From contig NZ_JPMX01000021.1 in the NCBI RefSeq assembly GCF_000761485.1, positions 1 through 64,000 of the forward strand: a stretch of DNA of 64,000 nt, given 5' to 3'. Below, in pieces: positions 12,705-54,105 of the stretch. The translations under genes and the position numbers were made by a program. The first letter of the stretch is position 1, and each line of letters opens with the position of its first letter. The DNA is from Modestobacter caceresii (GTDB lineage: Bacteria > Actinomycetota > Actinomycetes > Mycobacteriales > Geodermatophilaceae). The notes under the pieces are model-generated. The model did not search any database. It had not been told where the DNA came from and was given only the letters and a program-made list of their open reading frames with translations.

Positions 12705-14141
12705 TCAGCCGAGGGTGCCCTCGCCGACCAGCGCGGTCACCAGGCCGGCACCCAGCCCGACCGCCAGCACGCCCAGCGCCCCGGCCACGGCCGCCGCGCG
12801 TGCCCAGCCGGCCGTCGGTGCGGGCTCGCCGGGCCGGAACGCCTCGACCAGCCACCGCAGGTAGTAGAAGAGGCTGACCAGGGTGTTCACCGCGGCGACC
12901 ACCACCAGCCAGGCCAGGTCGCCGTCCCACGCGGCGGTGAAGACGGTCAGCTTGCCCAGGAAGACCGCCGTCGGCGGGGTGCCGACCAGGCTCAGCAGGC
13001 TGATCACCAGCGCGGCGGCCAGGCCCGGCCGCTGCCGGGCCAGGCCGCGGAAGTCGGTCAGCGACCGGGCCCCGGGGACGGCGGCGAGCACGGCGAAGGC
13101 GGTGAGGTTGGTGACCGCGTAGCCGGCCAGGTAGACCAGCAGCGCCGGCACCGCGGCGGAGGTGTCGGCCACCACGGCCACCGGCATGAGCAGATAGCCG
13201 ACCTGGCTGACCGTCGACCAGCCGAGCAGCCGGCGGGCGTCGGTCTGGGCGAGTGCGGCCAGGTTGGCCAGCGTCATGGTGGCGGCGGCGAGCAGCCCGA
13301 CCAGCAGCGGCCAGGGCAGTGAGCCCGGCAGCACGTCGACCAGCCGCGCGGCGGCGACCAGCGCGCCGATCTTCGGCACGGTGGTGAGGAACGCCGCTGC
13401 GGCGGTGCCGGCGCCCTGGGTCGCGTCCGGCACCCACTGGTGCAGCGGCACCCCGCCGGCCTCGAACAGGAGGCCGGCGAGCACCGCCAGCGCACCGACC
13501 GCCACCGCGGCGGCCGGCGCCAGCGCCAGCCCGGCGGCCAGGTCGACGTACGCGGTGCCACCGGCGATGCCGGACAGCACCGTGGCCCCGAGCAGCAGCA
13601 GGATCCCCGACAGCGCGCCGAGCAGGTACGTCTTCAGTGCGGCCTCGGCTGCGCCAGGGGTGCGGACCATCCCGACCAGCGCGTACACCGGGATGCTGGC
13701 CAGCAGGAAGCCGACGGCGAGCACCAGCAGGTCGTCGGTGGCGGCCAGCACGATCGCGCCCAGCCCGCCGAGCAGCAGCAGCGTGTAGGTCTCGCTCTCC
13801 CGCGCCGTCCCGGCCAGCTCGTCGACGCCCAGGCCGATCACCAGCAGCACCGCGGCGACCACCACCAGCCGGGTGACCGCGGTCGCGGTGTCCAGCACGA
13901 ACGCCCCGAACACCGTCTCCGCGTCCCCACCACCAAAGTGGCCATTTTGGTGGCTTGGGAAGGCGAGGGCGGCGGAGACGGCGGCGGCGAGGAGGGCGGC
14001 GACCGCGATCAGCCGGGCCACCCACTGCCGCTGCCGGGGCAGGAAGGAGCCGGCCAGCAGGGTGGCCACCGCGCCCGCGAGGAGGGAGAGCTCGGGGAGC
14101 AGCGCCAGCGGCGACTGCTCCATCATCATCGCCGGCTCCAT
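12705..14141 (-). CDS. nuoN: NuoN-like antiporter subunit of the complex I-like operon, with altered key residues
   Basis: A 478-residue polytopic membrane protein of the Mrp-antiporter-like family and the last gene of the operon. Recognisable blocks: VPLHQWVPDATQGAG, TTVPKIGALVAA, STVSQVGYLLM and TPPTAVFLGKL. Two residues needed for proton pumping in NuoN look changed. The TM5 Glu is replaced by Leu (LAVGFLLASIPVY, about residue 146). The TM7 Lys (normally FK before VPFH) is Glu (LLFEAGGVPLHQ, residue 227). The DxKRLLAYS block reads DARRLLGWS. The helix TM8 Lys remains. This suggests this subunit may not pump, or pumps differently. The ATG overlaps the nuoM stop (TGATG). Confidence 0.85.
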   Translation of the reverse strand: MEPAMMMEQSPLALLPELSLLAGAVATLLAGSFLPRQRQWVARLIAVAALLAAAVSAALAFPSHQNGHFGGGDAETVFGAFVLDTATAVTRLVVVAAVLLVIGLGVDELAGTARESETYTLLLLGGLGAIVLAATDDLLVLAVGFLLASIPVYALVGMVRTPGAAEAALKTYLLGALSGILLLLGATVLSGIAGGTAYVDLAAGLALAPAAAVAVGALAVLAGLLFEAGGVPLHQWVPDATQGAGTAAAAFLTTVPKIGALVAAARLVDVLPGSLPWPLLVGLLAAATMTLANLAALAQTDARRLLGWSTVSQVGYLLMPVAVVADTSAAVPALLVYLAGYAVTNLTAFAVLAAVPGARSLTDFRGLARQRPGLAAALVISLLSLVGTPPTAVFLGKLTVFTAAWDGDLAWLVVVAAVNTLVSLFYYLRWLVEAFRPGEPAPTAGWARAAAVAGALGVLAVGLGAGLVTALVGEGTLG

Positions 14142-15628
14142 CACCTGCCCACCAGGTCGACGAGGACGGCGGACGCCGGGGTGATCAGGTCCAGCAGCAG
14201 CCAGGGCAGGACGCCGATCGCCAGGGACAGCAGCAGCAGCCCGGTGACCGGCACCGCTTCGACCGCCCGCACGTCGGTGAAGCCGATCGACCGGCCGCCG
14301 GGCAGCCCGGTGACCAGCAGTTGCAGCGCGCGGAGGAACAGCGCGGCGGTGATCAGGATCCCGGGCAGCGCGATCGCCGCCCACGCGGTGGTGCCGATGC
14401 TCCCGGCGAACACCTGGAACTCGGCGATGAACCCGCTGAACGCCGGGATGCCGAGCGAGGCGAACGCGCCGACCGCGAACAGGCCCGACCAGACGGGTGC
14501 GCTGCGGGCCAGGCCGCCGTAGTCGCGCATGGCGTAGCTGCCGGTCCGGTCGTGCAGCACCCCGGCCAGCAGGAACAGCGCCCCGGTGATCAGGCCGTGG
14601 CTGACCATCTGGGTGACGGCGCCGGTCACGGCCAGCTCGCGGGCCGCCGTCCCCCCGCCGAGGAGGCCCGCCGCACCGACCGCGAGCACCACGTAGCCCA
14701 TGTGGTTGATCGAGGTGTAGGCGATCATCCGCTTGACGTCGGTCTGGGCGAGGGCGACCAGCGCGCCGTAGAGCACCGAGGCGATCCCGACCCCGAGCAC
14801 CACCCAGGCCGCCCCGCGCCAGGCGTCCGGCATCGCGGGCATGGCGATCCGGACGAAGCCGTAGGTGCCCATCTTCAGCAGCACCGCGGCCAGCACGGCC
14901 GAACCGATCGCCGAGGCGTCGGTGTGCGCCGGGGGCAGCCAGGTGTGGAACGGGATCGTCGGCGTCTTCACCGCCAGCCCCAGCAGCAGGGCGGCCAGCA
15001 CGAACCCGCCGGCGACCGGGTGGTCCTGCAGTGGGGCAGCGGCGACCAGCTCGGGGATGTCGAAGGTGTGCGGGTCGGCGGCCAGGTAGAGGCCGATGAA
15101 GCCCAGCAGCAGCGCCAGGCTGCCCAGGAACGTGTAGAGGAAGAACTGCAGCGCCGAGCGGCCGGCGTCCCGGCCGTGCCCCCAGCCGGCGATCGCGGCG
15201 TACATGCCGACGATCGACAGGTCGAAGAAGACGAAGAAGACGATCAGGTCCTGGGCGGCGAACAGCCCCATGCAGGTGGCCTGCAGGGCCAGGAAGAGGG
15301 CGGCGTGCTGGCGTGGGCGCCGGTCCTCGCGCAGCCCGTAGACCGCGCAGGCGCAGAACACCACCGCGGTCAGCGCCAGCAGCGGCACCGAGAGCCCGTC
15401 GACACCGACGTGCCAGCTGCTGTTGACCGACGGGATCCAGCGAGCGCGCTCCTCGAAGGCGAGACCGCCGTCCGCGGGCGTCTCGTACCGGGCGATGAGC
15501 ACGCCGACCAGCAGGACCTCGGCGGCGGTGACCGCGATCCAGGTCCAGCGGGCCACCCGGTCGGGCACCCGGGGCACGGCCAGCACGGCTGCCGCCACCA
15601 GGGGCAGGAAGATGATCGAACTGAGCAC
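14141..15628 (-). CDS. nuoM: NuoM-like antiporter subunit
   Basis: A 495-residue membrane protein with the NuoM/ND4 pattern: AVKTPTIPFHTWLPPAHTDA (TM7 Lys kept), AVLLKMGTYGFVRI (TM8 Lys kept), QTDVKRMIAYTSINHMGYV, and a quinol-oxidase-like C-terminus. The TM5 glutamate that couples to the lysine is an aspartate here (FFDLSIVGMY, residue ~136), a conservative but unusual change. Probably translocates protons or sodium ions within the membrane arm. It starts at a GTG four bases after the nuoL stop and shares a TGATG junction with nuoN. Confidence 0.9.
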   Translation of the reverse strand: MLSSIIFLPLVAAAVLAVPRVPDRVARWTWIAVTAAEVLLVGVLIARYETPADGGLAFEERARWIPSVNSSWHVGVDGLSVPLLALTAVVFCACAVYGLREDRRPRQHAALFLALQATCMGLFAAQDLIVFFVFFDLSIVGMYAAIAGWGHGRDAGRSALQFFLYTFLGSLALLLGFIGLYLAADPHTFDIPELVAAAPLQDHPVAGGFVLAALLLGLAVKTPTIPFHTWLPPAHTDASAIGSAVLAAVLLKMGTYGFVRIAMPAMPDAWRGAAWVVLGVGIASVLYGALVALAQTDVKRMIAYTSINHMGYVVLAVGAAGLLGGGTAARELAVTGAVTQMVSHGLITGALFLLAGVLHDRTGSYAMRDYGGLARSAPVWSGLFAVGAFASLGIPAFSGFIAEFQVFAGSIGTTAWAAIALPGILITAALFLRALQLLVTGLPGGRSIGFTDVRAVEAVPVTGLLLLSLAIGVLPWLLLDLITPASAVLVDLVGR

Positions 15629-15632
15629 GGAG

Positions 15633-17555
15633 CTACCTCACTGCCAGGAGGAGGGCCAGCGCGGCGGCGAGCACCACGGCGGCCGAGACGTAGTACTGGT
15701 GCAGCTGGCCGGTCTGGGTGCGCCGGGCCCAGCCCCCCAGCCAGCGGGTGCCGGCGGCCAGCGACCGCACGGCGGCGTCCGGTCCGGCGAGGTCGGCCCG
15801 GCCCGTGGCGTCGGCCAGTCGCACACCGGCGGTGGCCGAGCCGGCCACCGCCCGGTCGAGCACCCCGTCGTCGAACCGGGCCGCGGCGCGCGCCGTCCGC
15901 AGCGCGCCCCGGCCGGCGCCGGTCACCGCTCGGGCGAGCACCCGGTCGTCGAACCGGGCCAGCGCCTCGGCCGTGCGCAGCACCGGCCGGACGACGACCA
16001 CGTCGGTCGCCCGGGCCAGGCCCAGCCAGCCCTCGAGCCACCCGGGGAGCGGCTGCAGCGGCCGGATCCGCACGAGCAGGAGCACCACCACGGCGACGAG
16101 CGCGGAGACGGCCAGCTCCACCAGGCCCGGGGTGGGCGCGCTGCCCGCGCCGAGGGCCCGGCGCAGGGTGTCGGCGACCGGAGGGAGGGCCAGCAGGCCG
16201 AGGACGGCGGCACCGACGGCGAGCACGACCAGTGGCGCCTGCTGCAGGACCCGCACCCGACGGGTGCCCTCCTCCTCGGTGTCGTAGCCCGTCTCGGCGT
16301 CCGCGGGGAGCCGCTGCCAGACGAGCCACAGCACCTTGCCGGCGTAGCCCGCCGACAGCGCCGCGGCGGCCAGCCCGACCAGGTACAGCGCCAGGGACTC
16401 CTCGTGCGCCCCCGCCAGCACGGCGTCCTTGGTCGCCCACAGCGACAGCGGCGCCACCCCGGCCAGGGCCAGCGCACCGACCCCCGCGCAGATCCCGACC
16501 AGCGGCCAGCGCCGGGCGGCGCCGCGCAGTGCCGGCAGCTGCTTGGTGCCCAGCGCGGTCAGCCACGCCCCGGCGGCCAGGAACAGCAGGGCCTTGGTGG
16601 CCGCGTGGGCGACGAGGTGCGCCGTGCCGCCGGCCACCGCTGCGACCCCGGCACCCAGCACCACGAACCCCAGCTGCGCCGCTGTCGAGGCGGCGAGCAA
16701 CTGCTTGAGGTCGCGCTGGGCGAGCGCCACCGCGCCGAGCAGCAGCGCGGTCAGCGCGCCCACCCAGGCCGCCGTCGGCCCGGCCCAGCTCGTCGCGCCC
16801 AGCAGCGGCGCAACCCGCAGCAGCAGGTAGCCGCCCATCGCGACCATGGCCGCGGAGTGCAGCAGGGCGCTGACCGGGCTGGGGCCCTGCATCGCCGCGG
16901 AGAGCCAGGCGGTGAACGGCAGCTGGGCGGCCTTGCCGAGCGCGGCGACCAGCAGCCCGGCCGCCGCGACGTCCCGCCACGGCGCCGGCAGCTCAGGCAG
17001 GTCGGTGAGCGCCAGGCCCGACCCCGCGGCCAGCGCCGCCCCGGCGGCCAGGTACAGCCCGAGGTCTGCGGTGCGGGTGGTGAGGAAGGCGGTCAGCCCG
17101 GCGCCGACCCGGTGCCGCTCCTGCCAGCGGAAGCCGATCAGCGCGTACGACGTCGCGCCCATCACCTCCCAGGCGAACAGCAGCGTCGGCAGCGTGGTGG
17201 CGCATACGGTGACCACCACGGCCGCGGCGAACAGCAGCACCAGGCCGGTGAAGCGGGCCCGGGCACCGGTGATGTCGGCGGCGGCGAACAGCAGCACCAG
17301 CAGCGTGACGGCGGCGACGGCGGGCAGCACGACGGCCGCCAGCGCGTCGACGGCCAGCCCGAACACCGCGCCCGGGAGGAAGGGCGCCGAGCCGGCCGGC
17401 CGGCCCAGCGCCACCGCGATCGACAGCACCAGGACGACGCCCGCCGTGACGATCCCGACCGCCGGCGCGACCCGGTCCGCGCGCCGCCCGGTGACACACA
17501 GCCCGGCGCCGACGACGGCGGGCACTGCGGCGCAGGCCCAGAGCAGCCCGGTCAC
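15633..17555 (-). CDS. nuoL: NuoL-like antiporter subunit
   Basis: A 640-residue membrane protein. Core motifs are intact: TM5 Glu in LFAWEVMGATSYALIGF, TM7 Lys in LGKAAQLPFTAWL, PSPVSALLHSAAMVAMG, QRDLKQLLAASTAAQLGF and HAATKALLFLAAG. A long C-terminal region after ~460 includes charged segments and a final hydrophobic helix, matching the lateral helix HL plus TM16 of NuoL. It is therefore the best-conserved pump of the set. The GTG start overlaps the nuoK stop (GTGA), implying coupled translation. Confidence 0.92.
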   Translation of the reverse strand: MTGLLWACAAVPAVVGAGLCVTGRRADRVAPAVGIVTAGVVLVLSIAVALGRPAGSAPFLPGAVFGLAVDALAAVVLPAVAAVTLLVLLFAAADITGARARFTGLVLLFAAAVVVTVCATTLPTLLFAWEVMGATSYALIGFRWQERHRVGAGLTAFLTTRTADLGLYLAAGAALAAGSGLALTDLPELPAPWRDVAAAGLLVAALGKAAQLPFTAWLSAAMQGPSPVSALLHSAAMVAMGGYLLLRVAPLLGATSWAGPTAAWVGALTALLLGAVALAQRDLKQLLAASTAAQLGFVVLGAGVAAVAGGTAHLVAHAATKALLFLAAGAWLTALGTKQLPALRGAARRWPLVGICAGVGALALAGVAPLSLWATKDAVLAGAHEESLALYLVGLAAAALSAGYAGKVLWLVWQRLPADAETGYDTEEEGTRRVRVLQQAPLVVLAVGAAVLGLLALPPVADTLRRALGAGSAPTPGLVELAVSALVAVVVLLLVRIRPLQPLPGWLEGWLGLARATDVVVVRPVLRTAEALARFDDRVLARAVTGAGRGALRTARAAARFDDGVLDRAVAGSATAGVRLADATGRADLAGPDAAVRSLAAGTRWLGGWARRTQTGQLHQYYVSAAVVLAAALALLLAVR

Positions 17556-17854
17556 CGGGACAGGTCCGTGGCCATGTCGGTCATGTCCGACTGCCGGGAC
17601 CGGTGCAGCAGCGTGGCCACCGCGAAGCCCATCGCCATCTCCACCGTCATGGCGGTGATCACCACGAGCAGCAGCACCTGGCCGTCCGGGGTGGGGGAGA
17701 GGAACCACCAGAAGGCCGCCGCGGCGAGGATGACGCCGTTGAGCATCAGCTCCAGGCCCATCATCACCATGACCACCACCTGCTGGGAGATGGCGCCGTA
17801 GAGGCCCACGCTGAACAACGCGGCTGCCACCAGCAACATCGTCTGCAGCGTCAT
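17552..17854 (-). CDS. nuoK: NuoK-like subunit
   Basis: A 100-residue protein with three membrane helices, exactly the family length. It includes GLELMLNGVILAAAAFWW (the conserved Glu of TM2) and VEMAMGFAVATLL (Glu of TM3). NuoK forms part of the half-channel next to NuoA/NuoJ/NuoN. The C-terminal tail (DMTDMATDL) is Met/Asp-rich, echoing the repeats in the soluble protein of this operon. ATGA overlap with nuoJ, GTGA overlap with nuoL. Confidence 0.92.
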   Translation of the reverse strand: MTLQTMLLVAAALFSVGLYGAISQQVVVMVMMGLELMLNGVILAAAAFWWFLSPTPDGQVLLLVVITAMTVEMAMGFAVATLLHRSRQSDMTDMATDLSR

Positions 17855-18390
17855 CGCCGGGCCTTCCCGGCCCGCAGGTCGTCGCCGAGCCGGTCGTACC
17901 GGCCCTTCGGCAACGCCAGCACCAGCGCAGCCACGATCGTGGCGAAGAGGACCGGCGAGACGGTCATCATCACCAGCATCTTCGACTCCATGACGGCCTC
18001 GCCCAGCGAGGTCACCAGGTCGGCGGCGGGAGCACCGCGGCGGGTGGGCCACGGGATCAGCAACGCCCCGGCGGCCAGCACGACGAACGTGCCGGTCGCG
18101 ACCGCCAGCGCCGGGCGCTTGCCGTGCACCATGTCCATCGGCATCAGCGCGGGGTTCATCCCCATGAACATGATCATGTAGATGCCCATGACCGCCATCT
18201 CCATGGTCATCATCAGCACGGTGATGACGCCCAGGAACTCCAGGTCGACCAGCAGCAGCACCAGGCCGACGGCGATGAAGGACGCGGCCAGCGCGTAGGT
18301 CGCCCGGGCCATCGAGTCGACCCGGAAGACGGCGACGCCGGTGGCCACCGCGATCACGGCGAGCACCCAGAACACGATCCCGGTCAGCAC
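17851..18390 (-). CDS. nuoJ: NuoJ-like subunit with a Met-rich segment
   Basis: A 179-residue membrane protein in the nuoJ position with about five hydrophobic helices. I start it at the GTG at 18390 because an AGGAGG sits six bases upstream; the GTG at 18396 would abut the ribosome site. The third helix and following loop are strikingly rich in Met (VLMMTMEMAVMGIYMIMFMG, then MNPALMPMDMVHG). Ordinary NuoJ has the GAVMVLFLFVVMML type of helix here, so the segment may have a special role, possibly metal or gating. Its stop overlaps the nuoK start. Confidence 0.85.
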   Translation of the reverse strand: MLTGIVFWVLAVIAVATGVAVFRVDSMARATYALAASFIAVGLVLLLVDLEFLGVITVLMMTMEMAVMGIYMIMFMGMNPALMPMDMVHGKRPALAVATGTFVVLAAGALLIPWPTRRGAPAADLVTSLGEAVMESKMLVMMTVSPVLFATIVAALVLALPKGRYDRLGDDLRAGKARR

Positions 18391-18401
18391 GTCCACCCTC
18401 C

Positions 18402-19334
18402 TCAGGCCTGGACCACGACGACGACGGACACGACCAGCAGCTGCAGCAGCACCAACGGGAGGGCGACCAGCCAGGCGGGCGCCGCGAACCGCTCCGGAGC
18501 GACCACCGGGAGCCGGCGCCGCAGCGCGACGAGCACCGTGAGCAGCCCGGCGGTCTTGACGAGCAGCCACAGCCAGGCCGGCAACAGCGGACCGTGCCCA
18601 CCGCCGAGGAAGGCGGTGGCCCCGAAGGCGGCCCCGGCGGTGAGCAGGGCGTACCGCCCGGCCGAGATCAGCCAGCGGTCGACACCGGCCGCCTCGACGA
18701 GCACCCCGCCGGCCGTCGTCGCCCCGATCGGTGCGCCGAGCGGCCCCCAGACGGAGAAGCCGGCGACCGCGACGCAGAAGACGGCGAACGCCACCGGCAT
18801 CCAGACGACGAACCACAGCCCGGACTGCGCGGCCACCACGTCACCGAGCCGGAGGCTGTCGGCGGCGACCGCCGGCGCGGTCAGCGCGAACATCAACGGC
18901 AGCTCGTAGGACAGCGCCTGGGCCAGGAACCGGTACCCGCCGACCAGGGCGTGGGCGCTGTTGGGACCCCAGCCGGCCAGCCAGACCGCCGCCCACACCA
19001 GCACGTCCATCGCGTTGAACCAGACGATGCCCACCGTCAGGTCGGCGACGGTCCACCGGCCGAACGGGACGACGGCGACCATCAGCAGCGCCGCGGTGAG
19101 CAGCCCGGCGCCGCCGATCCGCTGCAACGGGAGGTCCGCGGCCGCGGTGGTCCGGCGCCGCTGGCCGAACAGCCGCGCCGTCTCCGCCACCGGGGTGAGC
19201 AGGCCGCCACCCAGCGGCTGCCCGGCGGACCGCGCGGCCAGCGCACCGTCCAGGCTCGCCGCGGCGGCCGCGACGACGAGCAGCAGCGCGGCCGCCACCG
19301 GCACCCAGCCGACCGAGACCTCGGTGACGGTCAC
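18402..19334 (-). CDS. nuoH: NuoH-like subunit with a divergent quinone loop
   Basis: A 310-residue membrane protein. The family signature ALVGGYRFLAQALSYELPL is clear. The segment that in canonical NuoH carries the acidic EAExELVAGFxxEY quinone-chamber loop is replaced by a Gly/Ala-rich stretch (FSVWGPLGAPIGATTAGG then VLVEAAGVDRW), with only an isolated Glu. The quinone-binding end of the chamber is therefore probably altered, in keeping with the missing NuoB/NuoD/NuoI partners. The GTG overlaps the stop of the upstream gene (GTGA). Confidence 0.8.
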   Translation of the reverse strand: MTVTEVSVGWVPVAAALLLVVAAAAASLDGALAARSAGQPLGGGLLTPVAETARLFGQRRRTTAAADLPLQRIGGAGLLTAALLMVAVVPFGRWTVADLTVGIVWFNAMDVLVWAAVWLAGWGPNSAHALVGGYRFLAQALSYELPLMFALTAPAVAADSLRLGDVVAAQSGLWFVVWMPVAFAVFCVAVAGFSVWGPLGAPIGATTAGGVLVEAAGVDRWLISAGRYALLTAGAAFGATAFLGGGHGPLLPAWLWLLVKTAGLLTVLVALRRRLPVVAPERFAAPAWLVALPLVLLQLLVVSVVVVVQA

Positions 19335-20446
19335 GAGCCCGCCTCCACCGGCACGGTCACCCGGTCGGCGGTGTCCAGGTCGAGCGAGGCGACCACCAGC
19401 CGGGCGGTGGCGAGGTCCAGCCCGGTGACCAGCTCGGCCACCGCGGTCAGCTCGGTGGACCGGCGCTGCTCGGTGCCCTCCAGCCAGTGCCGCAGCCGGT
19501 CGTGCGCATCGCCCTCGGGGAGCCGGCCCAGACCGCGCAGCGACCAGCGGAGCAGCCGCGACCGGATGATCCGGCGGGCCAGCCGCTCGGCCTCGGGTGG
19601 CTGCCCGCCGGCGAGCAGGGCGTCGCGGACCCGGGCGGCCCGGGTGGCGGCGTCGTCCCAGCCGGCCAGGGCCAGCAGGGTGGCCACCGCGTCCCACCGG
19701 CCGGCCGGGGTGCCGTGCACCGGCGCGTCGGTGGGGGAGTCGTCGGCCGGCAGCAGCACCTCCGCCCGGGCGGCGACGACCAGGTCGCCCTGGAGGGTGG
19801 TGTGCAGCAGCAGGCCGGCCGGCCAGTGCGGCAGGACCGGGCCGAGGGGCACGTGCAGCACGTCGAGGTCGAGGGCGTCGGGGTCGGTCAGCTGGTCGTC
19901 GTCCCCGCCGCCGGCCAGGCCGATCCCGGCAGGCATCGGCATGTCCATGTCGCCGTGGTCCATGTCGCCGTGGTCCATGTCGCCGTGGTCCATGTCGCCG
20001 TGGTCCATGTCGCCCATGTCCTGGTCACCCATGTCGCCGTCGTCGGAGTCGTCGTCCATGTCCGTGTCGCCCATGTCGCCGTTGCCCGTGGCGGTGGTGC
20101 CGGGTTCGGGGTCGGCCGGCCGGTCGGCGGCGTCGCGCCGCTGGGCTGCGCCGTCGGCGAGCTCGGTCGCGGCACGGTCCAGGACGGCCGGGACGTCGAC
20201 GGCGGTCGTCACCTCGGCGCGGGCGCGAGGGCCGGGCAGCTGGCTCCAGACGTGGTCGACCGCGGCGGTCAGCCGGGCCCCGGGGCGTCCGCACACCACG
20301 AGCAGGTCCGCGTCGGCGGGGGAGCCGGCCAGCCGCCAGCCCCGGTGCCGGACGTGCTCCTCGAGCGCGCAGCGGGTGCGGCTCCAGCCGGGCACCTCGA
20401 CGGCGAGCACCGCGGTGCGGCGGGCGGCCAGCGGGCTCAGGTCCAC
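19331..20446 (-). CDS. Asp/Met/His-rich protein at the NuoB-C-D position; possible degenerate NuoB-NuoD fusion
   Basis: A 371-residue soluble protein between nuoA and nuoH, where nuoB, C, D, E, F, G and I would normally lie. The first ~80 residues (ADADLLVVCGRPG, then AAVDHVWSQLPGPR) resemble the NuoB core strand-helix (ADLLIV.G.......V..VYDQMPEP) but lack the four Fe-S cysteines. Residues ~120-165 are a low-complexity tract with four exact GDMDH units and MDMPMPAG. After it, VLHVPLGPVLPHWPAGLLLH then TTLQGDLVVAARAEV recalls the start of NuoD (LGPQHPxxHGVLRL..LDGE.V). The Asp/Met/His tract could bind copper, nickel, cobalt or other metals. The homology is my reading and needs profile comparison. 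Overlaps nuoA by 10 bases. Confidence 0.6.
   Translation of the reverse strand: MDLSPLAARRTAVLAVEVPGWSRTRCALEEHVRHRGWRLAGSPADADLLVVCGRPGARLTAAVDHVWSQLPGPRARAEVTTAVDVPAVLDRAATELADGAAQRRDAADRPADPEPGTTATGNGDMGDTDMDDDSDDGDMGDQDMGDMDHGDMDHGDMDHGDMDHGDMDMPMPAGIGLAGGGDDDQLTDPDALDLDVLHVPLGPVLPHWPAGLLLHTTLQGDLVVAARAEVLLPADDSPTDAPVHGTPAGRWDAVATLLALAGWDDAATRAARVRDALLAGGQPPEAERLARRIIRSRLLRWSLRGLGRLPEGDAHDRLRHWLEGTEQRRSTELTAVAELVTGLDLATARLVVASLDLDTADRVTVPVEAGS
19944..20003 (-). repeat. Tandem 15-bp repeat encoding GDMDH units
   Basis: Four exact copies of the 15-base unit TCCATGTCGCCGTGG (plus strand), flanked by degenerate copies to about 20090. In frame they encode (GDMDH)n within the gene above. Exact DNA identity between copies suggests recent expansion or slippage, so copy number may vary between strains. 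Confidence 0.9.
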
Positions 20447-20787
20447 CGCAGCGCACCCTCGCGCCAGGCCCAGAGCACGCCGGTCATCAGCACGCCGAGC
20501 AGCACGAACATCTCGACGATCGCCGAGGTCCCGATCGAGGCGACCACGGTCGCCCACGGGTACATGTAGAGCATCTCCACGTCGAAGGCGAGGAACAGCA
20601 GGGTCATCGGGTAGTACCGCGCCTCGAACCGGGACAGCGCGTGCTCGGCGGGCCGCCAGCCGGAGAGGAACGGCAGGGTCGCGACCGCGTCCGGCGCCAC
20701 CGCGGTCCGCCGGTGCAGCAGGTACGCCAGCAGCACACCGCCGACGGCGAGGCCCAGCATCGTGGCCAGGCTCAGGTAGGCCGACAC
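20437..20787 (-). CDS. nuoA: NuoA-like subunit, first gene of the complex I-like operon
   Basis: A 116-residue protein with three membrane helices and the NuoA/ND3 pattern: RFEARYYPMTLLFLAFDVEMLYMYPWA (the F-D-E-FL-PW motif with the acidic pair in TM2). The canonical Cys of the TM1-2 loop is absent, as in many bacteria. The GTG start at 20787 follows a strong GGAGGA site. It is the promoter-proximal gene, 88 bases from the divergent ArsR regulator. Confidence 0.92.
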   Translation of the reverse strand: MSAYLSLATMLGLAVGGVLLAYLLHRRTAVAPDAVATLPFLSGWRPAEHALSRFEARYYPMTLLFLAFDVEMLYMYPWATVVASIGTSAIVEMFVLLGVLMTGVLWAWREGALRWT

Positions 20788-20841: not shown

Positions 20842-20863
20842 TACCCGTGCGCCCGTGCGGGTA
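20842..20863. promoter_or_regulatory. Palindrome in the ArsR/nuoA intergenic region, candidate ArsR operator
   Basis: Perfect six-base arms TACCCG and CGGGTA with a ten-base centre, between divergent nuoA and the ArsR-family gene. Size and position fit an ArsR/SmtB operator controlling both directions. No experimental support. Confidence 0.45.
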
Positions 20864-20875
20864 ACCGCACCGATC

Positions 20876-21250
20876 GTGACGGACCATCCCCATCCGGTCG
20901 ACCCCGTGCGTGTGGCTGCGGCCAGGGCGCGGGTGCCCAGCCGTGAGGACGCGGCGAGCCTGACGGCGATGCTGAGCCTGCTGGCCGACCCCACCCGGTC
21001 CCGGGTGCTCTACGCCCTCGACGTGGTCGAGGAGCTCTGCGTGGGCGACCTGGCGATGGCGCTGGAGGCGACCGAGGACGCGGTCGGCTATGCGCTGCGG
21101 CTGCTGCGCACCGCCGGCTTCGTCACCAGCCGCAAGGACGGGCGGGTCGTCTACTACCGCTTGGCCGACGGCTTCCCGGGGCCGCTCCGGGAACACTGCC
21201 TGCGGCAACTCGTCGAGCTCTCCCGCCAGGTGGCCGACGGGGAGGACTGA
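20876..21250 (+). CDS. ArsR/SmtB-family winged-helix regulator
   Basis: A 124-residue regulator: LADPTRSRVLYALDVVEELC (dimer and DNA-binding core), VGYALRLLRTAGFVTSRKDG (recognition helix and wing), RVVYYRLAD (wing strand). The segment ELCVGDL corresponds to the ELCVCDL metal box of ArsR/CadC sensors but has only one of its two cysteines. With HPHPV near the N-terminus, a different metal site or another ligand is possible. I start at the GTG at 20876 rather than the ORF's earlier GTG. Divergent from the nuo-like operon and probably its repressor, since the operon product carries a metal-ligand-rich tract. Confidence 0.85.
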   Translation: MTDHPHPVDPVRVAAARARVPSREDAASLTAMLSLLADPTRSRVLYALDVVEELCVGDLAMALEATEDAVGYALRLLRTAGFVTSRKDGRVVYYRLADGFPGPLREHCLRQLVELSRQVADGED

Positions 21251-43564: not shown

Positions 43565-46027
43565 ATGCAGACCGACCGCATCGCAGAACCGTGGGGCACC
43601 CGGACGCCGTACGGGCCGGGGGAGGCGTGGCCCACCCGGGTCGACACCCACCTGGCCGACGGGGTCGCCCCCGAGGACGTCGACCGCTGGGTCCAGTCGG
43701 CGACGATCCTGCACTCCAACGGCGACGGCCTGGACATCGCGGTCAAGGACGGCGAGATCGTCGGGGTCCGTGGTCGGGAGGTCGACCGGGTCAACCACGG
43801 CCGGCTCGGGCCCAAGGACCTCTTCGGCTGGCAGGCCAACAAGTCACCGGACCGGTTGACCAAGCCGCTGATCCGGCGCAACGGGAAGCTGGTGGAGACG
43901 GACTGGGACACCGCGATGGACGCGGTGGTCAACCGGACCAAGGAGCTGCTGGACGAGCAGGGCCCCAGCGCGATCAGCTTCTACACCACCGGGCAGCTGT
44001 TCCTGGAGGAGTACTACACCATGGGGCTCATCGCCCACGGTGGCATCGGCACCAACCACGTCGACGGCAACACCCGGCTGTGCACCGCGACGGCGGCCGC
44101 GGCGCTCAAGGAGTCCTTCGGCTGCGACGGGCAGCCCGGTTCCTACACCGACATCGACCACGCCGACGTCATCGCGCTCTACGGCCACAACATGGCCGAG
44201 ACCCAGACGGTGCTGTGGACCCGGGTCCTGGACCGGCTGGCCGGGCCGAACCCGCCGAAGGTCATCTGCGTCGACCCGCGGATGACGCCGGTCGCGCGCG
44301 AGGCCACCATCCACCTGGCGCCCCGGCCGGGCACCAACGTGATGCTGATGAACGCCCTGCTGCACGAGATCATCGCCAACGGCTGGGTGGATTCCGACTA
44401 CGTCCAGGCGCACGCGGTGGGCTTCGCGGAGCTGGAGAAGCGCGTGGCGGACTACCCGCCGGAGGTCGCCGCGGAGGTCTGCGACGTGCCGGCCGAGCAG
44501 ATCCGGGAGGCCGCCCGGGTCCTCGGCCAGGCGGAGCGGCTGCTCTCGACCGTGCTGCAGGGCTTCTACCAGTCGCACCAGGCCTCGGCCGCTGCCGTGC
44601 AGGTCAACAACGTCAACATCATCCGCGGCATGCTGGGCAAGCCCGGCTGCGGGGTGCTGCAGATGAACGGCCAGCCGACGGCGGAGAACACCCGCGAGTG
44701 CGGTGCCGACGGCGACCTGCCGGCCTTCCGTAACTGGTCGAACGACGAGCACGTGAAGGACCTCGCGAAGGTCTGGAACCTCGACCCGATGCAGATCCCG
44801 CACTGGTCGCCGCCCACCCACGCCATGCAGATGTTCCGCTACGCCGAGGAGGGCTCCATCCGGTTCATGTGGGTGCAGGCCACCAACCCGGCGGTCTCCC
44901 TGCCCGAGCTGGGTCGGATCCGGGAGATCCTGGCCCAGGAGCGCCTCTTCCTCGTGGTGCAGGACATCTTCCTGTCCGAGACCGCGCAGCTGGCCGACGT
45001 GGTGCTGCCGGCGGCCACCTGGGGGGAGAAGACCGGCACCTTCACCAACGTCGACCGCACCGTGCACCTGTCGGAGAAGGCGGTCGAGCCGCCCGGCGAG
45101 GCGCGGCCGGACCTGGACATCTTCATCGACTTCTCCCGGCGGATGGGCCTGCAGGACAAGGACGGCCAGCCGCTGGTGAAGTGGGACGACCCGGAGGGCG
45201 CGTTCGAGGGCTGGAAGGACTGCACCCGCGGGCGGCCGTGCGACTACACCGGCCTGAGCTACGAGAAGCTCCGCGGCGGCAGTGGCATCCAGTGGCCGTG
45301 CAACGCGGAGAACCCCGACGGCACCGAGCGCATCTACGTCGACGGCCAGTTCTGGGCAGCACCCGACTACTGCGAGAGCTACGGCCGGGACCTGGTCACC
45401 GGCGCGCCGCTGTCACCGGTCGAGTACAAGGCGCTGAACCCCACCGGCAAGGCGGTCCTGAAGGCGGTCGAGTACCTGCCGCCGCACGAGATCGTCAGCC
45501 AGGAGTTCCCCTTCCAGCTGATCACCGGGCGCACCCTCTACCACTTCCACACCCGGACCAAGACCGCCCGGGCGCCGCAGCTGCAGAAGGCGGCGCCGGA
45601 GGTGTGGGTCGAGCTGTCGGCCAGTGACGCCGCCGACCGTGGCTTCACCGAGGGCGACCTGCTGGAGATCAGCACCCCCCGCGGCCGGGTGGAGGCCCGG
45701 CTGCGGATCAGCGGAATCCGGCCCGGCGTGGCGTTCCTGCCGTTCCACTACGGCTACTGGGACTCACCGTCGGGCCACGAGCCGGGCGGCAAGCGGGGTC
45801 GGGCGGCCAACGAGTTGACGCTCACCGACTGGGATCCCGTGTCCAAACAGCCGATCTTCAAGACCGCTGCGGCGGCGGTCCGCCGGTTGTCGAAGGGCAA
45901 GGGGAGCCCGTCCCTGGCACCCACGACCACGGGATCGCGGCCGGTGACGGCCGACGTGCCGCCCACCACCGGCGGGCCCGCCGCCGCCGTCACCGAGCAG
46001 ATGGCCGCGACCGGAGGTGTGAAGTGA
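43565..46027 (+). CDS. Molybdopterin oxidoreductase (NasA/FdhA-like) lacking the N-terminal [4Fe-4S] cysteines
   Basis: An 820-residue DMSO-reductase-superfamily protein. The N-terminal region aligns with nitrate reductase/formate dehydrogenase (VKDGEIVGVRG, NHGRLGPKD, SPDRLTKPLIRRNG), but the cluster cysteines are replaced: where CxxCxxxC is expected it has ILHSNGDGLDI, and GRLCPKG is GRLGPKD. The Mo ligand appears kept as Cys in NTRLCTATAAAALKE. Later blocks QMNGQPTAENTRECGADG, LSETAQLADVVLPAATWGEKTGT and C-terminal VAFLPFHYGYWDS complete the fold. Substrate unknown: formate or nitrate by similarity. Without the cluster, electron exit must differ. ATG preceded by AGGAGG. Confidence 0.88.
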   Translation: MQTDRIAEPWGTRTPYGPGEAWPTRVDTHLADGVAPEDVDRWVQSATILHSNGDGLDIAVKDGEIVGVRGREVDRVNHGRLGPKDLFGWQANKSPDRLTKPLIRRNGKLVETDWDTAMDAVVNRTKELLDEQGPSAISFYTTGQLFLEEYYTMGLIAHGGIGTNHVDGNTRLCTATAAAALKESFGCDGQPGSYTDIDHADVIALYGHNMAETQTVLWTRVLDRLAGPNPPKVICVDPRMTPVAREATIHLAPRPGTNVMLMNALLHEIIANGWVDSDYVQAHAVGFAELEKRVADYPPEVAAEVCDVPAEQIREAARVLGQAERLLSTVLQGFYQSHQASAAAVQVNNVNIIRGMLGKPGCGVLQMNGQPTAENTRECGADGDLPAFRNWSNDEHVKDLAKVWNLDPMQIPHWSPPTHAMQMFRYAEEGSIRFMWVQATNPAVSLPELGRIREILAQERLFLVVQDIFLSETAQLADVVLPAATWGEKTGTFTNVDRTVHLSEKAVEPPGEARPDLDIFIDFSRRMGLQDKDGQPLVKWDDPEGAFEGWKDCTRGRPCDYTGLSYEKLRGGSGIQWPCNAENPDGTERIYVDGQFWAAPDYCESYGRDLVTGAPLSPVEYKALNPTGKAVLKAVEYLPPHEIVSQEFPFQLITGRTLYHFHTRTKTARAPQLQKAAPEVWVELSASDAADRGFTEGDLLEISTPRGRVEARLRISGIRPGVAFLPFHYGYWDSPSGHEPGGKRGRAANELTLTDWDPVSKQPIFKTAAAAVRRLSKGKGSPSLAPTTTGSRPVTADVPPTTGGPAAAVTEQMAATGGVK

Positions 46028-53697: not shown

Positions 53698-54105
53698 TCA
53701 GCCCAGCGAGCTGATCAGCTCGCGGCAGGCCTGCTCGCAGCGGCGGCAGGACTCCGCACAGACCCGGCAGTGCTCGTGCATCTCGGCGTGGCCGCTGCAC
53801 TCGTCCCCACACGCCTTGCAGGCGGCCGCGCAGGCCTCGAGGACGGCCCGGGTCAGGTTGGCGTCGTACCCGGTGTGCCGGGACAGCACCCGCCCGGTGG
53901 CCTCGCAGACGTCGGCGCAGTCCAGGTTGGTCCGGATGCACGTGCGCAGGTCGGCGACCATGTCCTCGGCCAGGCAGGCGTCGGCGCACGCGGTGCACGC
54001 CTGCGCACACTCCAGGCACGCCTCGATGCAGGCGACGAGCTTCTCCCGGTCGATGCCCCCGAGGTCCTGCGGGTACGTCTCCAGCATCTGGGCTGCTGCG
54101 CTCAT
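53698..54105 (-). CDS. Four-helix-bundle copper-binding protein (DUF326/Csp family)
   Basis: A 135-residue Cys-rich helical protein, with about 19 cysteines spaced along helices: [63 protein letters not shown]. This CxxxC/CxxC lining of a four-helix bundle is the signature of copper storage proteins (Csp) that bind many Cu(I) ions. No Tat signal, so the cytosolic Csp3 type. It buffers copper, possibly for copper stress. ATG 54105; its promoter region faces that of the DevR-like regulator. Confidence 0.92.

Follow-up and report, generated by a model that had tools for sequence, protein, structure and literature searches.

A redox-free relative of the complex I membrane arm, very probably linked to copper, in Modestobacter caceresii and other bacteria

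Gene set and comparison with described systems

Mrp antiporters and DabAB contain complex-I-type antiporter subunits that work without a redox arm, and in complex I itself the way in which quinone chemistry drives distant proton channels is a long-standing dispute. We analysed a stretch of 64,000 nt from Modestobacter caceresii (contig NZ_JPMX01000021.1, positions 1 to 64,000; here called the window), the minus strand of which carries a cluster of eight genes, nuoA-X-nuoH-J-K-L-M-N, at 12705-20787 (Table 1). The cluster is very probably a copper-linked module free of redox parts. Three features carry this reading: a protein, X, that reads as a fused relic of NuoB and NuoD with a metal-binding segment between them, invariant methionines in NuoJ, NuoK and NuoA, and copper-type genes beside many relatives of the cluster.

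The gene set itself is already in print. For Salinispora, Penn and Jensen (2012, PMC3314556) describe a 'second partial NDH-1 operon' that also consists of nuoA, H, J, K, L, M and N, and the same set is given for Kocuria flava S43 (PMC6002675) and Streptomyces (PMC4018334). The Salinispora operon was interpreted as pumping sodium or protons in adaptation to marine life (PMC3314556), and this was adopted in PMC6002675 and PMC4018334. An earlier annotation of the window, made from its letters alone (the sequence-only reading), knew of no functional study; none was found in the open-access literature, although the three papers do describe the gene set. The terms copper, methionine and nuoB are absent from the main text of Penn and Jensen (PMC3314556), as are NADH, nuo and complex I from the available text of PMC9436591 and PMC8478169. 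No copper link for the gene set was found in the open-access literature, which was covered in part and with subscription papers outside the search.

Pfam models for NuoA, H, J, K, L, M and N were all matched above cut-off, which makes the membrane arm of complex I complete. As the sequence-only reading had stated, the eight genes run in one direction. Their junctions are of at most 10 bases: overlaps of 10 bases between A and X, 4 between X and H, J and K, and K and L, and 1 between M and N, and gaps of 5 between H and J and 4 between L and M. E. coli NuoB, CD, E, F and I had no match in the window at E 0.01, in agreement with the earlier claim that NuoE, F and I were missing, and NuoG had a single weak, distant match (43751-44041, E 0.002). 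The separate full nuo operon for which a search had been advised is present on contig C7, which has in-order matches to every one of E. coli NuoA, B, CD, E, F, G, H, I, J, K, L, M and N. The NADH module NuoE, F and G, not among the eight genes, is thus present in the C7 operon. NuoB and NuoD each scored above cut-off once in the genome (4.95 Mb, 139 contigs), both on C7. Two more pairs of PF00361 antiporter-type genes were seen on contigs C28 and C118 of genome G000. Models of anti-phage defence gave no match to the four proteins searched.

Table 1. Features of the cluster and of the adjoining regulator gene in the window.
Feature	Position	Strand	Description
nuoA paralogue	20437..20787	-	116 aa; PF00507 E 9e-25
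X	19331..20446	-	371 aa, two cysteines; read as fused NuoB relic, metal-binding linker and NuoD relic, without Fe-S ligands
NuoB-relic part of X	20147..20419	-	about residues 10-100; PDB profile search, Foldseek, hhalign
Asp/Met/His-rich linker of X	19907..20107	-	about residues 114-180; sequence
NuoD-relic part of X	19376..19888	-	about residues 187-357; hhalign via HMBD-type X
nuoH paralogue	18402..19334	-	310 aa; PF00146 E 8e-38
nuoJ paralogue	17851..18396	-	181 aa; PF00499 E 2e-10
NuoJ methionine ladder	18124..18213	-	M62, M63, E66, M67, M70, M74, M78, M80; loop M85, M87, M89, H91
nuoK paralogue	17552..17854	-	100 aa; PF00420 E 4e-14
nuoL paralogue	15633..17555	-	640 aa; PF00361 E 8e-44; pump residues kept
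nuoM paralogue	14141..15628	-	495 aa; PF00361 E 1e-63; pump residues kept
nuoN paralogue	12705..14141	-	478 aa; start 14141 or 14144; PF00361 E 9e-52
ArsR/SmtB-family regulator	20855..21250	+	NF033788 above cut-off; divergent, adjoins nuoA

Like complex I, the cluster has homologues of NuoA, H, J, K, L, M and N in the same order, relics of NuoB and NuoD, and the pump residues of NuoL and NuoM. Unlike complex I, it is without genes for NuoC, E, F and I, its X is without iron-sulfur ligands and its quinone-side residues are lost, and it has a methionine ladder in NuoJ, K and A and a metal-binding insert. The earlier statement that the complex could neither use NADH nor carry an iron-sulfur chain was borne out. 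Mrp and DabAB resemble the cluster in having antiporter subunits without a redox arm; they differ from it in that they are not known to have NuoA, NuoH or a NuoB/D relic. MrpE, F and G were not the leading match for any of the eight genes in Pfam or NCBIfam. The sequence-only reading had offered a DabAB-like carbonate pump, and this was rejected because DabA (PF10070) had 0 matches in the genome (the controls, B. subtilis and Haloferax, were positive). The NiFe cysteine pairs and the small-subunit iron-sulfur cysteines of Ech/MBH membrane hydrogenases were not found, X of the window having two cysteines only.

Of 25 carrier genomes, 10 had no match to NuoD and 3 more had a weak partial one (drafts may be incomplete); the 25 were hand-picked from the 80 loci described below, leaning to genera not known to have complex I. 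Because of these ten genomes the arm seems not to need a redox arm, and the idea that it depends on NuoB, C, D and I from elsewhere was not supported. In another set of 12 X-bearing genomes, 11 had one NuoD and the draft G071 had none. If the cluster encoded an alternative membrane arm docking with the redox arm of normal complex I, the presence of 7 of the 14 subunits and these 11 genomes would agree with it. This reading is strongly disfavoured by the carriers in which NuoD is missing or weak and partial, by G071, and by X, which would fill the place of NuoB and NuoD.

Decay after duplication of a nuo operon was also weighed as the origin of the cluster, and the missing redox genes would speak for it. 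Against four close relatives, dN/dS was 0.05-0.25 for A, H, J, L, M and N and 0.24-0.62 for X, and NuoK had no amino-acid change at all; against the more distant L066, the subunits gave 0.05-0.44 and X 0.53. The low dN/dS, the unchanged NuoK and a gene order kept across phyla refute decay, which we give virtually no chance; the untranscribed decay products that the sequence-only reading had allowed for find no support in dN/dS.

Protein X and the residues of the quinone and pump ends

In the sequence-only reading, an 'unknown soluble protein' and an 'Asp/Met/His-rich protein' were listed apart; both belong to one gene, X. The X protein of the window had no Pfam match, and NCBIfam gave weak NuoB matches alone (E 0.011, residues 33-74). 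A profile of 15 X relatives matched NuoB/PSST chains in PDB (best E 5.7e-4), and hhalign of the N-terminal part of X against NuoB gave E 5e-7. When an AlphaFold2 model of X (mean pLDDT 77) was searched with Foldseek, NuoB-type chains ranked first; the best E was 5e-3 and none was below 1e-3, and it is the ranking that carries the weight. The linker was of low confidence in the model and without secondary structure.

Direct comparison of actinomycete X with NuoD by hhalign was not significant (E 0.12). Actinomycete X did align with an X type that contains the domain HMBD (E 1.4e-22), the C-terminal part of which aligned with NuoD over 318 columns (E 2.5e-19) and passed the PF00346 cut-off. The NuoD identity of actinomycete X follows from this bridge. 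HMBD (PF19335) lies between the NuoB-like and NuoD-like parts in four X relatives, from Rubrobacter, Sulfitobacter and Nitratireductor, in which X is longer; the two Rubrobacter proteins also match PF01058 (NuoB) weakly. X of Halomonas passes PF00346 and is without HMBD, and X of M. avium had no Pfam match. The N2 cysteines (C63, C64, C129 and C158 of E. coli NuoB) are absent in the aligned X rows, and the cysteines of the window protein, residues 26 and 52, both fall in the NuoB part. Owing to the NuoB matches, the link to NuoD through HMBD-type X and the missing N2 cysteines, X is, judged from its sequence, a fused relic of NuoB and NuoD, split by a metal-binding segment and without iron-sulfur ligands. 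That no intact NuoB, C or D is present was therefore correct; the relics of NuoB and NuoD in X had been overlooked.

Residues of the subunits were counted in 94 loci (L062-L145 and L171-L180). The choice of residues tested, and their assignment to the quinone site, E-channel and pump together with the topology, follow work on complex I. All 89 NuoL rows keep E144, K229 and K342, and 87 of them keep K399. K234, K265 and E407 are present in every one of 89 NuoM rows, 83 of which have Asp for E144. NuoN keeps K247 in 90 of 90 rows and K395 in 89, the window keeping both; E133 is lost in all 90 and K217 is Glu in 15, the window included (residue 227). NuoH keeps E157 in 84 and E228 in 87 of 93 rows, while E241 is Arg in 91, E216 falls in a gap in 89 and D213 is kept in 10 (E. 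coli numbers); the window has lost the acids D213, E216 and E241. The positions of NuoCD H224 and Y273, which with the NuoH acids we take to be the quinone site, hold other residues in aligned HMBD-type X (read by eye). At the quinone end the arm is broken, and at the antiporter end it is mostly intact.

With its metal-binding segment flanked by the NuoB and NuoD relics, X would also suit a redox device, in which copper bound to X replaces N2 and electrons from Cu(I) drive proton pumping. We regard this as highly improbable, as the NuoH acids are gone, the H224 and Y273 positions are replaced in HMBD-type X, and two clusters are without X.

Methionines of NuoJ, NuoK and NuoA

Canonical rows for comparison were 12 in number, ten from the family of the window plus E. 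coli and Ensifer. NuoJ was obtained from 90 of the loci, L113 and L137 (cut contigs) and L174 and L175 (no tblastn match) being left out. All 91 NuoJ relatives have M29, M62, M63, M67, M70, M74, M78, M80, M87, M89, M140 and H91, and M85 is present in 83 of them; none of the 12 canonical rows has any of these residues. E66 is present in all 91 and is Ala in all 12 canonical rows; M63 stands where E. coli has Tyr59. Near-invariant columns (at most one exception) number 22, of which 11 are Met. The 91 sequences form 64 clusters at 90% identity, and identity to the seven rows from Proteobacteria and Rubrobacter is only 31-47%. The same pattern was seen in ten loci of the phylum sample, which are not part of the subunit counts (L230 among them repeats L171, the Rubrobacter marinus plasmid), and the Salinispora copies bear the same ladder. 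Cyanobacterial and Thermus NuoJ, read by eye in PDB alignments, have no Met at the positions of M62, M63, M67, M70, M74 and M78.

Mean Met content was 9.9% in NuoJ versus 2.7% in the 12 canonical rows, and 9.6% versus 5.4% in NuoK; H, L, M and N showed no rise over canonical rows, and the percentages for NuoA are unreliable because several canonical NuoA rows, like some of NuoM, were extracted too long. NuoA has E71-M72-x-x-M75 (20563-20577); every one of 91 relatives has M72 and M75, and no canonical row does (0 of 12, with gaps there in 3 and 1 rows, respectively). NuoK has M69-x-x-E72-M73-x-M75 (17630-17650), with M29 and M73 in 93 of 93 relatives and in 0 of 12 canonical rows. Each subunit shows a Glu-Met pair, namely E71-M72 in NuoA, E66-M67 in NuoJ and E72-M73 in NuoK, where residue 72 is Glu in 90 of 93 rows and Asp in 3. 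The invariant methionines of the three subunits stand beside the glutamates of the E-channel. In the NuoJ model (mean pLDDT 66, moderate confidence), residues 53-77 form one helix, presumably the gating helix of complex I, and the NuoJ methionines are predicted to lie on or beside it.

Further metal-rich stretches were found in NuoJ. In L174 and L175 the NuoJ loop holds a long insert rich in His and Met, and the NuoJ tail of Roseivivax and Acuticoccus is rich in His. With the linker of X and HMBD in X, metal-rich stretches occupy several places of one complex.

CusA and CTR1 move Cu(I) along methionine pairs and an MxxxM motif, and CusA is proton-driven. The likeness of the cluster to them would lie in the methionine path, the folds being unrelated. 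We think it rather probable that Cu(I) crosses the membrane through NuoJ, K and A. Cu(I), bound to X and to the methionines of NuoJ and K, might instead be a switch that is not carried, gating a proton (or Na+/H+) channel or antiporter that resets pH or membrane potential under copper stress. Such a channel would suit the retention, in nearly all rows, of the antiporter residues tested in NuoL and NuoM and the varying place of the metal-rich segments, but an invariant row of methionines on one predicted helix, with more in NuoK and NuoA, exceeds the needs of a switch, and we judge it rather unlikely.

Distribution, copper-type neighbours and proposed function

X was found in 45 of 112 genomes of the family of the window and in 29 of 396 genomes sampled across the phylum (E 1e-6). 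A scan of genome contigs gave 109 X relatives, of which 80 were kept as loci; Modestobacter, Mycobacterium, Salinispora, Arthrobacter, Kineococcus and Nocardioides are among their genera. The order A-X-H-J-K-L-M-N was complete and identical in 72 of these 80 actinobacterial loci, and the parts present in the other 8, cut by contig ends, follow it. It also recurred in 12 of 14 plasmid records chosen from about 35 best of 387, including Proteobacteria: Roseivivax, Halomonas, Acuticoccus, Sulfitobacter, Nitratireductor, two Rubrobacter, Curtobacterium, Rhodococcus, Pseudonocardia, Arthrobacter and Mycobacterium avium. The plasmid clusters of Rhodopseudomonas and Methylobacterium are without X. 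In a NuoM tree, 36 cluster rows stood apart from 12 canonical rows (support 94/94, long branches); the split was just under the significance mark of the tool, with the canonical side weak (95/29). X matches were seen at two places in some genomes (L070 and L075 of Arthrobacter echini P9; G005, G026 and G059), probably representing two clusters. In G060, G010, G014 and others, X matches were split between contigs near the repetitive linker, and draft genomes may undercount X for this reason.

Neighbouring genes were searched by tblastn with reference proteins, and eight genomes of the family of the window supplied 20 random stretches of 20 kb as controls. At least one of nine copper-type families flanked 39 of 80 loci and none of the 20 random windows (Fisher p 1e-5, a value made too small by kinship between loci). 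With P-ATPase added, at least two of ten families were found at 22 of 80 loci, versus 0 of 20. DUF305 was near 21 of 80 loci versus 0.54 expected from at least 277 copies in 108 family genomes, assuming a genome of 4.4 Mb. Among the plasmid loci, 10 of 14 have annotated copper or metal-ATPase genes: CueR, P-ATPase and a multicopper oxidase in Roseivivax; a copper oxidase and CopB in Halomonas; a multicopper oxidase adjoining nuoA, sulfocyanin and DUF305 in Arthrobacter FB24; CopD in Nitratireductor; a metal P-ATPase and an HMA protein in M. avium; and such genes also in Acuticoccus, both Rubrobacter, Curtobacterium and Pseudonocardia. The Rhodopseudomonas and Methylobacterium loci have DUF305 only, and no copper-type gene lies in the stretch shown for Sulfitobacter and Rhodococcus. 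The copper link is strong, yet absent from the window's own clade. A metal link, one of the options offered by the sequence-only reading, is supported, and the metal is most likely copper.

The divergent ArsR-family protein that had been proposed is present (Table 1) and contains the segments HxHPVDP, ELCVGD and REHC. Its N-terminal HPVDP-type motif and single cysteines are shared by 19 of 24 ArsR-type hits at X loci, possibly forming an unusual metal site; the remaining 5 resemble different ArsR proteins.

Multicopper oxidases, cupredoxin and cytochrome genes adjoin some loci, as would be expected of a copper importer or of delivery to cuproenzymes. However, neighbours of the tolerance type (metal P-ATPase, CsoR, CueR, DUF305) are common and the metal-rich parts would lie on the NuoB/D side, that is, in the cytoplasm, so that we hold this to be quite unlikely. 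The sodium- or proton-pumping partial NDH-1 for marine adaptation, proposed in the Salinispora paper and taken up in those on Kocuria and Streptomyces, agrees with the six Salinispora loci, none of which has a copper-type gene in its flanks. It is very unlikely, as the cluster is without a redox driver, the Salinispora copies have the methionine ladder, and the cluster also occurs in Modestobacter, Arthrobacter, Nocardioides and Mycobacterium. These four genera are not known as mainly marine.

The reading that we favour, if only by a little over even chances, is that the cluster descends from complex I, does without redox chemistry and handles Cu(I) or Ag(I), probably as a proton-driven exporter; the chemistry of Ag(I) would be the same as that of Cu(I) here. 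Proton-driven export taken by itself stands slightly below even chances. The same tentative grade applies to the full scheme, in which the whole membrane arm with gutted NuoB and NuoD would be a proton-coupled Cu(I) exporter and the ladder would replace quinone as the trigger of the E-channel. X would sit on the cytoplasmic face at the place of NuoB and NuoD. Cytoplasmic Cu(I) would be caught by the Met/His linker or HMBD of X, or by the NuoJ extensions, and would enter the methionine ladder of NuoJ, K and A, which would replace the signal path from quinone to the E-channel. Along the same charged axis the passage of Cu(I) would be linked to protons coming in by way of NuoL, M and N, operating in reverse. 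The proton gradient would then push copper out, to the side on which multicopper oxidase and DUF305 proteins would act. The ArsR protein would probably derepress the operon as the metal rises. The anatomy and gene context can be read from the sequences; transport, coupling and direction are what we infer.

Several observations weigh against this proposal. Neither the nine families nor P-ATPase were found at 37 of 80 loci, including the clade of the window (L062-L065) and all six Salinispora loci, and some locus flanks were short (2-10 kb). The three DUF305 genes of the genome all lie outside contig C21, and the only candidate in the window is a DUF326-type gene 33 kb off. The reference copper proteins were taken from X neighbourhoods, the control windows came from one family, as did ten of the 12 canonical rows (the window's own), and plasmids are generally rich in metal genes. 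The NuoJ model is of moderate confidence only, and the lining of one path by methionines is putative. The losses of E133 and K217 in NuoN, which include the window, mean that its half-channel may not pump. L174 and L175 are without X, and their NuoJ, outside the counts, has Gly at the place of E66.

The DUF326-type gene of the window (53698-54105, minus strand) encodes a Cys-rich protein of 135 aa, 75% identical to the product of a DUF326 gene flanking an X locus of Mycolicibacterium. We take this gene to be copper-storage-like, and DUF305 and DUF326 presumably include copper-binding proteins.

If the proposal is true, a complex I has turned into a metal transporter driven by an ion instead of electrons, forming a clade of its own on chromosomes and plasmids in at least two phyla. 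A relative without the quinone, iron-sulfur and NADH parts that keeps the junction subunits and the pumps would show what the pump itself needs, and with the coupling zone swapped for metal ligands the trigger (Cu or Ag) could be added at will. Genes now annotated as NADH-quinone oxidoreductase subunits would then belong to an added copper-tolerance system, often plasmid-borne.

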